DNA of 64,000 nucleotides from Comamonadaceae bacterium (GTDB lineage: Bacteria > Pseudomonadota > Gammaproteobacteria > Burkholderiales > Burkholderiaceae_C), in contig CANCLK010000006.1 of assembly GCA_947378785.1 (NCBI GenBank), positions 1-64,000 on the forward strand. Reading direction: 5' to 3'. Numbering within the stretch: the stretch's first letter is position 1; each line of letters starts with the position of its first letter. Made by a program: the position numbers and the translations under genes. The notes beneath the pieces are model-generated. The model was not told where the DNA came from. It worked only from the letters and a program-made list of their open reading frames with translations, and searched no databases. Below are positions 33,174 to 44,951 of this stretch, piece after piece.

Positions 33174-33971
33174 TTGAAAATTGGCAAGGCCACCCAACCC
33201 CGTTCAGCCATTTGCACCTCGAACGCTGAAACGATCGTGGTGCGCGGTGCGGACTTGTCCCGCGAGCTGATCGGACATATCAATTTTGGCGACTATTTTT
33301 TCTTGTTGGTCACCGGTCGTCGCGCTGATGCTGCGACCAGTGCCGTGCTGAATGCCACCTTGGTGGCGATTGCCGAACACGGTTTGGTGCCGAGCGTGCA
33401 AGCGGCCCGCATGACGCTGGCCGCTGCACCGGATGCGATGCAGGGTGCGGTGGCGGCGGGTTTGTTGGGCTCTGGCTCGGTGATTTTGGGCGCTTCTGAA
33501 ACGGCGGGGCGACTGTATTTAGCGGTGGAAAAAGAAGCTGACAAACACGCAGGTGATTTGCATGCGGCGGCGCGTGCCGTGGTGGCTGATTTGCGTGCGC
33601 GCAAGTTGCCTATCGCCGGTTATGGTCATCCCGAACACAAGCAACGCGATCCGCGCGTTGGTCGGTTGTTCGAAGTCTCGGCTGAGGCCGGCGCGGGTCA
33701 GCGTTATGTCGAGATTGCAAAAATAGTGGAGGCCGTCATTCCTGAAATCGTCGGCAAGGAGCTCAAGCTGAATGTGTCAGGGGCGATTCCTGCGGTGCTG
33801 CTGGGCGTGGGTTTTCCGGTCAATGCGCTCAAGGGCGTGCCAATGCTGGCGCGCACAGCCAGCTTGATTGCCCACCTGAATGAAGAGCTGGAAGATCCGA
33901 TTGGTTTTGCGCTGTCTTACCAAGCCACGCAAGGGCTGCAATACACCGGTGACATGCCTAAGGCATCCTGA
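33174..33971 (+). CDS. Citryl-CoA lyase-like protein (citrate synthase superfamily)
   Basis: 265 aa; ISFGDY-like NFGDYFFLLVTGRRA, AEHGLVPSVQAARMT, AGYGHPEHKQRDPRVGRLFE; TTG start. Confidence 0.82.
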   Translation: MKIGKATQPRSAICTSNAETIVVRGADLSRELIGHINFGDYFFLLVTGRRADAATSAVLNATLVAIAEHGLVPSVQAARMTLAAAPDAMQGAVAAGLLGSGSVILGASETAGRLYLAVEKEADKHAGDLHAAARAVVADLRARKLPIAGYGHPEHKQRDPRVGRLFEVSAEAGAGQRYVEIAKIVEAVIPEIVGKELKLNVSGAIPAVLLGVGFPVNALKGVPMLARTASLIAHLNEELEDPIGFALSYQATQGLQYTGDMPKAS

Positions 33972-40764: not shown

Positions 40765-40832
40765 AGCGCACATCGCTGGGTTGATAATCTGATGCTTTGC
40801 TTCTTCGCGTATTTGTCTACCGTCCTTTTGTC

Positions 40833-41588
40833 GTGAACTTTCCCGTCATCACTGATCCGCTTTTTTACTTGTGCGCTATTCCTTCCGTGCTGCTGCTGGG
40901 CGTCAGCAAAAGTGGTTTTGGCATGGGCATTGGTTCGCTGGCGGTGCCGCTGATGGCGCTCACGACCTCGGTCCCGCAAGCCGCTGCAATCTTGATGCCG
41001 GTACTCTTGCTTGTTGATTTGTTGGGCCTTGCCGCTTTTCGCAAGAATATCGACGTCAAGTTTCTACGGTTTTTGATCCCTTTTGGCTTGCTTGGAACGC
41101 TGTTGGGCGCCCTGTTGTTCAAGTCGCTCGATACCCATCTGGTGGCCGGTTTGGTCGGTGGCTTGACCCTGCTTTTTCTGGCTCAACGTTTGTTGTTCCC
41201 ACCGCGTGCAGACAGCGCACCGCCTCCGCGTTGGGTTGGTGCTGTCTTGACCACCGTTTCCGGTTTCACGAGTTTTGTCGCTCATTCGGGCGGCCCACCC
41301 ATCAGTGCTTATGTGATTCCATTGCGGCTGAGTCCGCTGCACTTTGCATCCACGATGGCTTACTTTTTCTTTGTGATCAATCTGTCCAAGTGGATTCCCT
41401 TTGCTTTCCTCGGCCTATTGGATGGGCGAAACATGGCGACGTCGCTGGTGCTCCTGCCACTGGTGCCGATTGGGGTTTTTGTGGGTTTTGCCATGGCCAA
41501 ACGCATCAGTCCGTTGCTTTTCAATCGTCTGCTCTACTGGGGTATGGGTCTGACCGGCACCAAGTTGCTATGGGACGCATGGCACTAA
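40833..41588 (+). CDS. TSUP/TauE-SafE family membrane permease
   Basis: AIPSVLLLGVSKSGFGMGIGSLAVPLMALTTSVPQAAAILMPVLLLVDLLGL...GFTSFVAHSGGPPISAYVIPLRL; GTG start inferred (ORF opens at 40797). Confidence 0.88.
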   Translation: MNFPVITDPLFYLCAIPSVLLLGVSKSGFGMGIGSLAVPLMALTTSVPQAAAILMPVLLLVDLLGLAAFRKNIDVKFLRFLIPFGLLGTLLGALLFKSLDTHLVAGLVGGLTLLFLAQRLLFPPRADSAPPPRWVGAVLTTVSGFTSFVAHSGGPPISAYVIPLRLSPLHFASTMAYFFFVINLSKWIPFAFLGLLDGRNMATSLVLLPLVPIGVFVGFAMAKRISPLLFNRLLYWGMGLTGTKLLWDAWH

Positions 41589-41640
41589 CAGCCTGAAAGT
41601 CGTCAAAATAATGTTGATCTCACATGGGGGGATTGATGTT

Positions 41641-41669
41641 AATCATTCGATTGATTCGGCCGAATGATT
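41641..41669. promoter_or_regulatory. Putative TetR-type operator (copy A)
   Basis: AATCATTCG...CGAATGATT inverted repeat with a central perfect palindrome ATTCGGCCGAAT; aligns with copy B at 44921-44951. Confidence 0.55.
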
Positions 41670-41758
41670 CATTTAAAGTCGCCAAAAGATGAGCCGGCTT
41701 ACCTGTGGCTTCGTCTTTGATGTCGATGTGAATCAGTGGTTAATTCAAGGAGCATGGC

Positions 41759-42769
41759 ATGTCTCTCGTCCGCCCACCCCCAATGCCCCGCCAATCGGTT
41801 GTCGAACGCTTCGCATTTTTTCTCATCGCCGCCGCCGTATCGCTAGGGGCGCAGGCTCAAACGCTAGGCGTGTTTCCCGCCAAGCCGATACGCTGGATCG
41901 TCGACTACCCCGCGGGCGGCATCTCTGACATTTTGGCCCGGCAGGTGGGGCAGAAACTGGCTGAAGCTTGGGGCGTGCCGGTGGTGTTTGACAACAAGCC
42001 CGGGGCCAACGGCATCATTGCCTATACCGCCATCGCTAAAGCGGTGCCAGACGGCTACACCATTGGCCTTGCTAGCACGCCCCTCGCGCTGAACCCCAGT
42101 CTGCGCAAGGACCTGCCTTTCGACACTCAAAAAGACATCGCGCCGCTAGCGCTGATGGCGCAGACCCCCAATGTGTTGATCGCCAACACGATCATCCAAG
42201 TCAGGACCGTGAATGATCTGGTCGCGCTATCGAAGACGCGGTCCGCCGGCCTAGACTATGCATCGGTGGGTATTGGCAGCTCGCCGCACTTGTCCGCTGA
42301 AATGCTGAAGAAGGCCACGGGCATCAAGGCAACGCACGTGCCCTACAACGGCAGCGGGCCTGCGCTGGTGGATCTGATCGCGGGGCGCTCGGACTTCATG
42401 TTCGTCAATCTGCCGGCTGCGCTGCCGCACATCCGCAGTGGCAAGGTGGTGGTGCTGGGCGTGGCTGACGAGCGGCGCAGCCCGGTGCTGCCTGATGTGC
42501 CCACGATGATCGAGGCTGGCGTACCGGACTTCGTTTCCATTGGCTGGTACGGCGCGGTGGCGCCAGTCGGTCTGCCGCCTGAGCTCGTCCGTCGCTACAA
42601 CACCGAAATCAACCGCATACTGAAGCTGCCCGAGATGCGTGAAAAGATTGAGTCGCTGGGGGCTGAGCCCGGCGCCCTAGAGGTGCCAGGCTACACCGTC
42701 TTCATCGACAAAGACATCCGGCGTTGGGCCAAGGCGGTGAAGGATACCGGTGCTACCGTCAACAACTAG
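41759..42769 (+). CDS. Bug-family substrate-binding protein (6 of 8)
   Basis: FPAKPIRWIVDYPAGGISDILARQVGQKLAEAWGVPVVFDNKPGANGIIAYTAIAKAVPDGYTIG. Confidence 0.92.
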   Translation: MSLVRPPPMPRQSVVERFAFFLIAAAVSLGAQAQTLGVFPAKPIRWIVDYPAGGISDILARQVGQKLAEAWGVPVVFDNKPGANGIIAYTAIAKAVPDGYTIGLASTPLALNPSLRKDLPFDTQKDIAPLALMAQTPNVLIANTIIQVRTVNDLVALSKTRSAGLDYASVGIGSSPHLSAEMLKKATGIKATHVPYNGSGPALVDLIAGRSDFMFVNLPAALPHIRSGKVVVLGVADERRSPVLPDVPTMIEAGVPDFVSIGWYGAVAPVGLPPELVRRYNTEINRILKLPEMREKIESLGAEPGALEVPGYTVFIDKDIRRWAKAVKDTGATVNN

Positions 42770-42884
42770 GGTGCTCACGCTTATCACTGCATGCGTTCTC
42801 TGCTTCCTAACTGGGGTTAGTGAGGCCGCAATCGGCTTGGGGTAGCTCGGCGGCGATTTATATGTAACGACAGGACCTTAAAAA

Positions 42885-44168
42885 ATGAGACAAATCGATG
42901 TTGTATCGTCTACCCGCTTCGAAGGCAGTGATGTGGAGCATGCCGCCTGCGTGAAGGCCGGCGAGTGGGTTTTCTTGAACGGCATCGAGGCCACCGACTA
43001 CCGCAGTGGCACCGACGCTGGGGTCAAGGGCCATGCAGGGCTGCCATACCACGGGCTACCCAAGCACCGGCGCGAGGGTGATTTTATCGTGGCGCGTATC
43101 AAGCAACTGCTGACAGCGGCGGGCACAGACTTCCGCCATTCGGTGCGGCTCGATCAGTACTACCCGACTTGGAAGGCGGTGGACCCCTACCACCTGTCTC
43201 GCACGGCGGCCTTCGGCAACCACATCCCGCCCAGTACCTCGGTAGTGATGAAGGGTCTGTTGGGCCCGGGCCTGGAGGTGGATAGCTCCTTGTTGGCGGT
43301 GATGCCCGGCACCGGACGCGACCCACAGCGGCTGTCGCCGCCAGACGTGACAGCACCGACTTGGTCTGGTTTCGCACCCGCCATGCGCAGCGGCGACTTC
43401 GTGTTCATCGCTGGCATCATGGCGCGTGCTGCTGACCACAGCTCGCCCTCCCATGCTCACGTGCCGGCCAATTCCAAGTGGGGTGGCTACGAGATTCGCC
43501 GGCAGGCCCAATACATCATCAACGAGAAAATCTTGCCCAGTCTGCAGGTGGGCGGTTCGTCGGCGGCTAATGTGGTGAAGGCGCAGGTTTACCTGCGTCA
43601 CTTGGACGACTTGCCGCATTTTCTGGACGTTTGGGACACGTGTTTTGGGGTGCGGCAGGTGGCGCTGACGATCGTGCCAACAGCCGATTTCGGCTTGGTC
43701 GATGGCGACCTAGAGATCAACGTCATGGCGGTGGCCGATGGCGCGAAGACGAAAAAGCAGGTCATCGATGCTGACATTCCGTCTCACATGTGCTTTGGTG
43801 CCCCAGCCGTACGTGCGGGCGATCTGTTGCTGTTTTCGGGCCTTCAGGCTGCCGACGACAACGGCCCGATCGCTGCTATAAGCGATGCGGCTGGCCTGCC
43901 TTGGATGGGCATCTCCGGCCGTGCGCAGATGGACTACATCTTGCGCCACGCAGCGGCCATCTGCGCCAAGGCTGGCACCTCTCTGGAAAATTTGGCGCGG
44001 GTGCATCTGTTTCAGACCGATCCGCAGGACTTCCAGGGCGTTTACAGTGCTTGGCAGGCGCATTGTCCGGGCCTGCCGTTGCCTTTCGTTCTTGTGCAGA
44101 CGCCCTCGCCGCAGGCCGTGCCCCAGTGCACGCTGGTGGCCGACATATGGGTCTATGCACCGCTCTGA
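42885..44168 (+). CDS. Three-domain RidA/YjgF-like protein
   Basis: 427 aa with three successive RidA-like units: VKAGEWVFLNGIEA..., MRSGDFVFIAGIMA...CFGVRQVALTIVP, VRAGDLLLFSGLQAADDNG...LPFVLVQTPSP. Confidence 0.8.
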   Translation: MRQIDVVSSTRFEGSDVEHAACVKAGEWVFLNGIEATDYRSGTDAGVKGHAGLPYHGLPKHRREGDFIVARIKQLLTAAGTDFRHSVRLDQYYPTWKAVDPYHLSRTAAFGNHIPPSTSVVMKGLLGPGLEVDSSLLAVMPGTGRDPQRLSPPDVTAPTWSGFAPAMRSGDFVFIAGIMARAADHSSPSHAHVPANSKWGGYEIRRQAQYIINEKILPSLQVGGSSAANVVKAQVYLRHLDDLPHFLDVWDTCFGVRQVALTIVPTADFGLVDGDLEINVMAVADGAKTKKQVIDADIPSHMCFGAPAVRAGDLLLFSGLQAADDNGPIAAISDAAGLPWMGISGRAQMDYILRHAAAICAKAGTSLENLARVHLFQTDPQDFQGVYSAWQAHCPGLPLPFVLVQTPSPQAVPQCTLVADIWVYAPL

Positions 44169-44232
44169 AACGGTTTAAGAAATGAACCAGCGTGGCGCCC
44201 AAGCGCAAGTGACACGCCAGAAAATCCAGCAT

Positions 44233-44886
44233 TCATGCTGCGACGGCGGTGTCCCTGAAGCCTGCCGCTGCAAATGAGACCAGCTTGGCTAAGGCGGCAG
44301 CGCTGTCCGAGGTGTCCAGAGCGCCATCCGTGATCGATTCAATCCGGCCCGGTGCCGCCATGGTGTAGACCATCGCCCCGAGCAGAAAGTGAAAGCGCCA
44401 GTGGAGGTCGTCGGCCTCGAGCTCGGGCAAAGCCTCCTGCAAGGTGCGCAAGAACTCGCGATTAGAGACGTCAAACGCCTTGCCGATGACGGCTCGACGG
44501 ACTTCGGCTTGTTCGAATGCCAAGCGTGCACGCAACAACACAAACGATGCGCCGCCCGGTCCCGCTGGTGCTTCCAAGGCGGGCTTTAAAAATGCCTCCA
44601 GCACGTCTTCAAGAATCGGATTGCCCTCTGGGTCGCGCCGGATCTGGCTCAGCAACTGGAGCCGGCGATTCGCGATCGGCCCGCCACGGATGGCGAAAAG
44701 CTCTTCCAATACAGCTTTTTTGGAGCCGAAGTGGTAGTGCACTGCGGCGATGTTGACGCCCGCGGCCGCAGTGATTTCTCGCAGGCTCACGGCATCAATG
44801 CCTTTTTCGGCAAACAGCTGCTCGGCCGTTTGCAAGATGCGGTCGCGCGTGCTGATCGTGAGCTCGGGGGTCTTTAAATCGTTCAT
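44233..44886 (-). CDS. TetR family transcriptional regulator
   Basis: ISTRDRILQTAEQLFAEKGIDAVSLREITAAAGVNIAAVHYHFGSKKAVLEELF; ORF extends to 44925. Confidence 0.93.
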   Translation of the reverse strand: MNDLKTPELTISTRDRILQTAEQLFAEKGIDAVSLREITAAAGVNIAAVHYHFGSKKAVLEELFAIRGGPIANRRLQLLSQIRRDPEGNPILEDVLEAFLKPALEAPAGPGGASFVLLRARLAFEQAEVRRAVIGKAFDVSNREFLRTLQEALPELEADDLHWRFHFLLGAMVYTMAAPGRIESITDGALDTSDSAAALAKLVSFAAAGFRDTAVAA

Positions 44887-44920
44887 GTGGCCTTGATCAT
44901 AAATCGAGAGATTTATTTTA

Positions 44921-44951
44921 ATCAAACGCTTGATTCAATCAAGTGTTTGAT
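44921..44951. promoter_or_regulatory. Putative TetR-type operator (copy B), 31-bp near-perfect palindrome
   Basis: ATCAAACGCTTGATTCAATCAAGTGTTTGAT, one mismatched pair, between the divergent TetR and cyclase genes. Confidence 0.7.

Follow-up and report, generated by a model that had tools for sequence, protein, structure and literature searches.

Known Rid systems and the three-domain protein

Proteins with three fused RidA domains have been named 3x-RidA and inferred to be covalent trimers, in a study that also describes the arginine as required for imine hydrolysis and as missing in Rid4 to Rid7, whose function is unknown, with no imine hydrolysis by the Arg-less Rid7 (Niehaus et al. 2015, PMC4433059). 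Since the design was thus named in 2015 and already interpreted in this way, the idea of a single-chain pseudotrimer, which a sequence-only reading of the DNA analysed here had put forward, is not new. Further papers on 3x-RidA were not found by a full-text search restricted to the open literature.

The gene in question lies at positions 42885-44168 on the forward strand of the window, by which we mean the whole 64-kb stretch of DNA that was analysed. It begins with ATG, contains no stop within its reading frame and encodes a product of 427 aa with no evident signal peptide and three RidA-like domains: domain 1 (42933-43298, aa 17-138), the furthest diverged from RidA, domain 2 (43350-43733, aa 156-283), the nearest to RidA, and domain 3 (43770-44159, aa 296-425), all on the forward strand. 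The window protein thereby shares with 3x-RidA, for instance EF_0115 of Enterococcus faecalis V583, three tandem Rid domains in one chain and a presumed covalent trimer, although EF_0115 was compared by description only, and 3x-RidA proteins have been described as a subset of the RidA subfamily, whose defining arginine is lacking in every domain of the window protein. It is a variant of the known 3x-RidA design and not a new architecture. With the homotrimeric RidA/YjgF/UK114 proteins (PF01042) it shares the domain fold, the glycine-rich start motif and, in domain 2, equivalents of Glu120 and Tyr17, but it consists of one chain with three non-identical domains, in which the arginine is replaced by Ser, Leu and Phe and, in domain 1, Asn88 by His103. 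Members of Rid4 to Rid7 likewise lack the catalytic arginine but have a single domain, as do the 2-aminomuconate deaminase AmnE/AmnD and RutC (142 and 134 residues in PDB), which are Rid-family enzymes of catabolism and not of housekeeping.

By profile and fold, the window protein is a member of the Rid superfamily. The Pfam profile PF01042 matches it with 55.3 bits against a curated cut-off of 27.3, so that the expectation of Pfam hits was borne out as to the family, but two significant stretches were found instead of three. An HMM of canonical RidA sequences alone detects domain 2 (8.8e-10) and domain 3 (6e-5) and leaves domain 1 undetected; this HMM was built from four proteins, namely two PDB hits, one protein from locus L045 and E. 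coli RidA. With TIGR00004, the model of Rid detoxifying hydrolases, the window protein scores 34.4 bits, below the cut-off of 106.25. Domain 1 was settled by profile-profile comparison using hhalign, in which a 20-sequence family for each domain was aligned with 34 single RidA proteins containing the arginine: probabilities were 98.3% (1.3e-14) for domain 1, 99.8% (1e-27) for domain 2 and 99.4% (6e-22) for domain 3. Together with an AlphaFold model that displays three RidA-like units (pLDDT 82.8, pTM 0.88, from an alignment of eight orthologues, window sequence included), this establishes that the earlier description of three successive RidA-like units was right, as was that of a start motif occurring three times (VKAGEWVFLNG at 23-33, MRSGDFVFIAG at 167-177 and VRAGDLLLFSG at 309-319). 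Judged from this predicted model, the three RidA-fold domains of the chain would probably fold together as one pseudotrimer. The AlphaFold model of an A-type paralogue (pLDDT 36) was too poor for use.

Position of the catalytic arginine in the three domains

In RidA, the catalytic arginine anchors the carboxylate of the substrate. The sequence-only reading had assigned this role in domain 2 to Arg257 (43653-43655) and had proposed one retained canonical site among three. However, HMMER alignments to the PDB chains 3quw and 2dyy, the RidA HMM and hhalign alike place FGVRQVALTIV on FGESKPARVAV-type segments, hence Leu261 (43665-43667, VALTIV) occupies the position of the arginine and Arg257 lies four residues earlier. 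What fixes the register is the Phe-Gly ahead of the arginine together with its two neighbours, Ala and Ser/Thr, F-G-E-S-K-P-A-R-V standing over F-G-V-R-Q-V-A-L-T. In the AlphaFold model residues 260-265 form a strand, and Arg257 is situated in the loop ahead of it. Arg257 is kept in eight of nine orthologues, with His in L039, and its position is variable in the sister subfamilies. With three alignment methods and the loop position in agreement, Arg257 was ruled out as the catalytic residue.

In domain 1, the position is taken by Ser117 (43233-43235, PPSTS), as had been read by eye, and Ser/Thr117-Thr118-Ser119 stand where RidA has Arg-Ser-Cys. The Leu or Pro given earlier for domain 3 was one or two residues off, since alignment yields Phe401 (44085-44087, LPFVLV). 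By these alignments the catalytic RidA arginine is missing from all three domains, and the conserved arginine (Arg105/107) by which the RidA subfamily is defined is thus not found in the window protein; with no domain carrying it, the notion of a single retained site falls and offers no basis for follow-up. Domain 2 is indeed the most RidA-like of the three, with the best score and with Glu277 (43713-43715) and F163 as the equivalents of Glu120 and Tyr17, but without the arginine. In domain 1, His103 (43191-43193) stands at the position of RidA Asn88, and the block VRLDQYYPTWKAV is conserved without exception among the window protein's own orthologues.

Relatives and the paired TctC gene

Betaproteobacterial MAGs yielded seven full-length orthologues (50-59% identity) along with one fragment, and a further orthologue, L039, was found on contig 62 of genome G311 among 369 genomes of the class. 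The sources of the orthologues are nearly all MAGs, and the genome of the window is itself incomplete, its assembly being 85% complete with 6.5% contamination. Altogether, nine betaproteobacterial genomes, mostly of uncultured bacteria, contributed 31 three-domain Rid proteins, with several such proteins per genome. In the genomes of loci L001-L007 (G667-G673), PF01042 matches number from 15 to 34 per genome, and many of the matching ORFs have 430-500 codons with three matches each. Several three-domain proteins of this expansion adjoin genes for TctC, M20 peptidase, MlrC or amidohydrolase.

A search for homologues with the same design and with arginine retained per domain was answered positively as to the former and largely negatively as to the latter. 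At the arginine column, the first domains of the 31 proteins have Ser in 26, Thr in four and Arg in one; the second domains have Leu in 14, Thr in eight, Val in three, Gly in three, Ala in two and Arg in one; and the third domains have Phe in 12, Leu in 11, Ile in four, Tyr in two and Val and Thr in one each, with Arg in none. Both arginines belong to one protein, L057:6198-7505 of G671, with PARTT in its domain 1 and PGRAS in its domain 2. At the same column 34 of 51 single-domain proteins have Arg.

In the tree of full-length proteins, the window protein clusters with its orthologues (100/100), and two sister subfamilies join this cluster (100/100). In the tree of single domains, the members of these three subfamilies separate by position in the chain, with one group each for first, second and third domains (SH-aLRT 100, 99 and 97), so that a single triplication predates the divergence of the subfamilies. 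The domains of the A, G and D types take another place in this tree, which is suggestive of a second triplication. Across 20 proteins of the window's clan 47 columns are invariant, polar residues at cleft positions included; those invariant in all 20 include E64, R88, D90, Q91, Y102, H103, R106, T118, S119, K232, Q234, E277, N279 and R372. The three domains are constrained differently, as expected if their clefts were specialised.

The clan is rare, being present in two of the 369 genomes of the class, window genome counted, and within the genus the gene was found in one of 87 genomes, that of the window. No A-type 3x-Rid was found in the same 369 genomes, no other 3x clan member when 399 genomes from the phylum were searched and no relative of the window protein on plasmids. 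In the window genome, no PF01042 match besides the window gene was found in an assembly that is 85% complete; to our knowledge, RidA is nearly universal.

Directly upstream, 115 nt from the 3x-Rid gene and on the same strand, lies a gene for a TctC/Bug solute-binding receptor (41759-42769), and such a same-strand TctC gene directly upstream is seen in the window as well as in each of the eight orthologue loci that extend upstream of the gene (L001-L008). The upstream TctC proteins of L001-L008 find their best match in the product of 41759-42769, above those of the window's seven other TctC genes. The two genes form a unit of about 2.6 kb (41594-44231), flanked on the left by a TauE/SafE permease gene (40797-41588, forward strand) and on the right by a convergent gene for a TetR-family regulator (44233-44925, reverse strand). 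In G678 and G682, genomes of the same genus, the unit is missing at the same position and the two flanking sequences meet, separated by no more than 24 and 33 unrelated bases, which indicates that receptor and 3x-Rid were gained, or lost, jointly. Since TctC genes are very common here, adjacency on its own is a weak argument; what carries it is that the partners are orthologous and that both genes were inserted or deleted jointly. The TetR gene counts as flanking sequence, being present at the junction in genomes without the pair. The window contains eight TctC/Bug genes within about 31 kb (19393-50832).

A misbinned contig is unlikely, as both flanks match genomes of the same genus at about 84%. 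A mobile element around the pair was also considered and set aside: the 2.6-kb unit contains no transposase gene, and weak repeats do not bracket it. The orthologue L039 is found on a short contig between IS240-type and IS66 transposase genes, which suggests mobility. A scan for promoters and terminators revealed nothing beyond chance level.

In L001, L003, L005 and L008 the pair stands last in an operon with the gene order Amidohydro_2, A-type 3x-Rid, single Rid, TctC and 3x-Rid, to which L008 adds a second 3x-Rid gene ahead of the single Rid. The operon at L008:2647-8312 encodes an amidohydrolase, two different 3x-Rid proteins, a single Rid protein, TctC and a third 3x-Rid that is truncated where the locus ends; its extra 3x-Rid gene starts within the last part of the gene before it, and L003 retains a short remnant only of this extra gene. 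The amidohydrolase and further Rid genes are missing from the window itself. As the earlier reading had noted, the neighbourhood is a catabolic one: genes of aromatic and carboxylic acid catabolism surround the window gene, among them those for an intradiol dioxygenase, a malonic semialdehyde reductase, CoA-transferases, BKACE and a PuuE-like deacetylase. They are part of the flanking DNA and may serve pathways other than that of the pair. Between a dioxygenase and a CoA-transferase gene, a citrate-synthase-like ORF of 265 aa (33174-33971) matches the C-terminal part of the Pfam profile only.

Possible functions of the presumed covalent trimer

The best explanation, to which we give an even chance, is that the window protein is a diverged catabolic 3x-Rid enzyme acting on a compound tied to the ligand of its partner receptor. 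It builds on the observed domain content, loss of the arginine, asymmetric conservation and linkage to an orthologous TctC gene that comes and goes jointly with it. Within a single chain, three RidA-fold domains would replace the three subunits of the RidA trimer, and their covalent linkage would let the three inter-domain clefts diverge from each other. Since none of the clefts has the carboxylate-anchoring arginine, the protein is probably no general 2-aminoacrylate/imine deaminase; we infer a soluble catabolic enzyme that could hydrolyse or isomerise the compound bound by the Bug receptor or a product of it. Its candidate active cleft would combine R88, D90, Q91, Y102, H103, R106 and P116-S117-T118-S119 of domain 1 with K232, Q234, E277 and N279 of domain 2. 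Against an enzyme, the same conservation would be expected of a non-enzymatic ligand-binding protein.

The wider proposal is a new Arg-less, asymmetric clan of 3x-Rid enzymes in uncultured Betaproteobacteria, paired with dedicated Bug receptors. In some operons as many as three of them would occur alongside a single Rid and an amidohydrolase, and a novel reaction would have evolved in one cleft of the covalent Rid trimer that became specialised. This proposal is put forward tentatively, its chances being somewhat short of even. The part of the finding that appears novel is the Arg-less 3x-Rid clan with its asymmetric signatures and several members per genome. Rid domains that lack the arginine, are fused and mutually diverged and are linked to a receptor provide a handle on the chemistry of the Arg-less Rid subfamilies, and the ligand of the receptor serves as a pointer to the 3x-Rid substrate. 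In a 3x-Rid protein the symmetry of the subunits is broken by fusion, and candidate active-site residues can be addressed individually.

Among the alternatives, a non-catalytic sensor or chaperone-like covalent trimer, which would regulate uptake or catabolism by binding a metabolite akin to the ligand of the Bug receptor, is the best placed, although we consider it unlikely, at about one chance in five. The loss of the catalytic arginine, the constant pairing with the gene of a periplasmic binding protein and the TetR gene that adjoins 3x-Rid in the window would agree with such a role; however, the many invariant polar residues at cleft positions fit an active site, and the TetR gene is part of the flank also found at the junction in genomes without the pair.

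Somewhat less probable still is an ordinary 3x-RidA that has merely diverged and retains a generic imine-detoxifying role. The architecture is established and Rid subfamilies such as Rid4 to Rid7 can persist without the arginine, but in the window protein all three arginines are gone, and Arg-less Rid7 showed no imine hydrolysis (PMC4433059). Moreover, the gene is inherited together with a receptor and found in one of 87 genomes of the genus, unlike a housekeeping gene.

A chorismatase-like enzyme, in which a single-chain Rid fold would hydrolyse an enol ether or a related cyclic acid as do FkbO/Hyg5, is improbable, though structural comparison brings it to attention. The chorismatases FkbO/Hyg5/XanB2 are single-chain proteins of Rid-type fold, and in a Foldseek search against PDB the chorismatase entries 5ag3, 5a3k and 4bps rank first and are the sole near full-length matches among the best 50 (E 1.5e-11), followed by RidA monomers aligned on single domains. 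Genes of aromatic catabolism, e.g. that of the intradiol dioxygenase, are also nearby. However, TM-scores of 0.48/0.59 and an rmsd of 5.8 make the match a modest one, single-chain Rid folds are expected to match one another anyway, and chorismatases have about 335 residues with 9-14% identity to the 427-aa window protein. The NCBIfam chorismatase model TIGR04444 gave no match to the window protein at E up to 1, and A-type paralogues reached 22-25 bits against a cut-off of 325.

The least credible of these explanations is a pseudotrimer in which a single canonical site would deaminate imines through Arg257. In its favour, domain 2 is nearest to RidA, keeps the Glu120 and Tyr17 equivalents and has Arg257 in eight of nine orthologues, but Leu261 stands at the catalytic position in every alignment, with Arg257 in the preceding loop, His in its place in L039 and variation in the sister subfamilies.

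Two further observations concern Rid proteins of other organisation. In a viral fold library, a YjgF-family protein of Pandoravirus neocaledonia (387 aa) matches the model over 348 columns with an rmsd of 12 and, on this comparison, may be another multi-domain Rid protein. At L048:6248-7467 of G668, three single-domain Rid genes follow one another on the same strand, each with the catalytic arginine (PARTV, PARTV and PARTA). The domain tree places them, with weak support, close to domains 2 and 3 of the window's clan, and the trio is possibly the unfused counterpart of a 3x-Rid gene.
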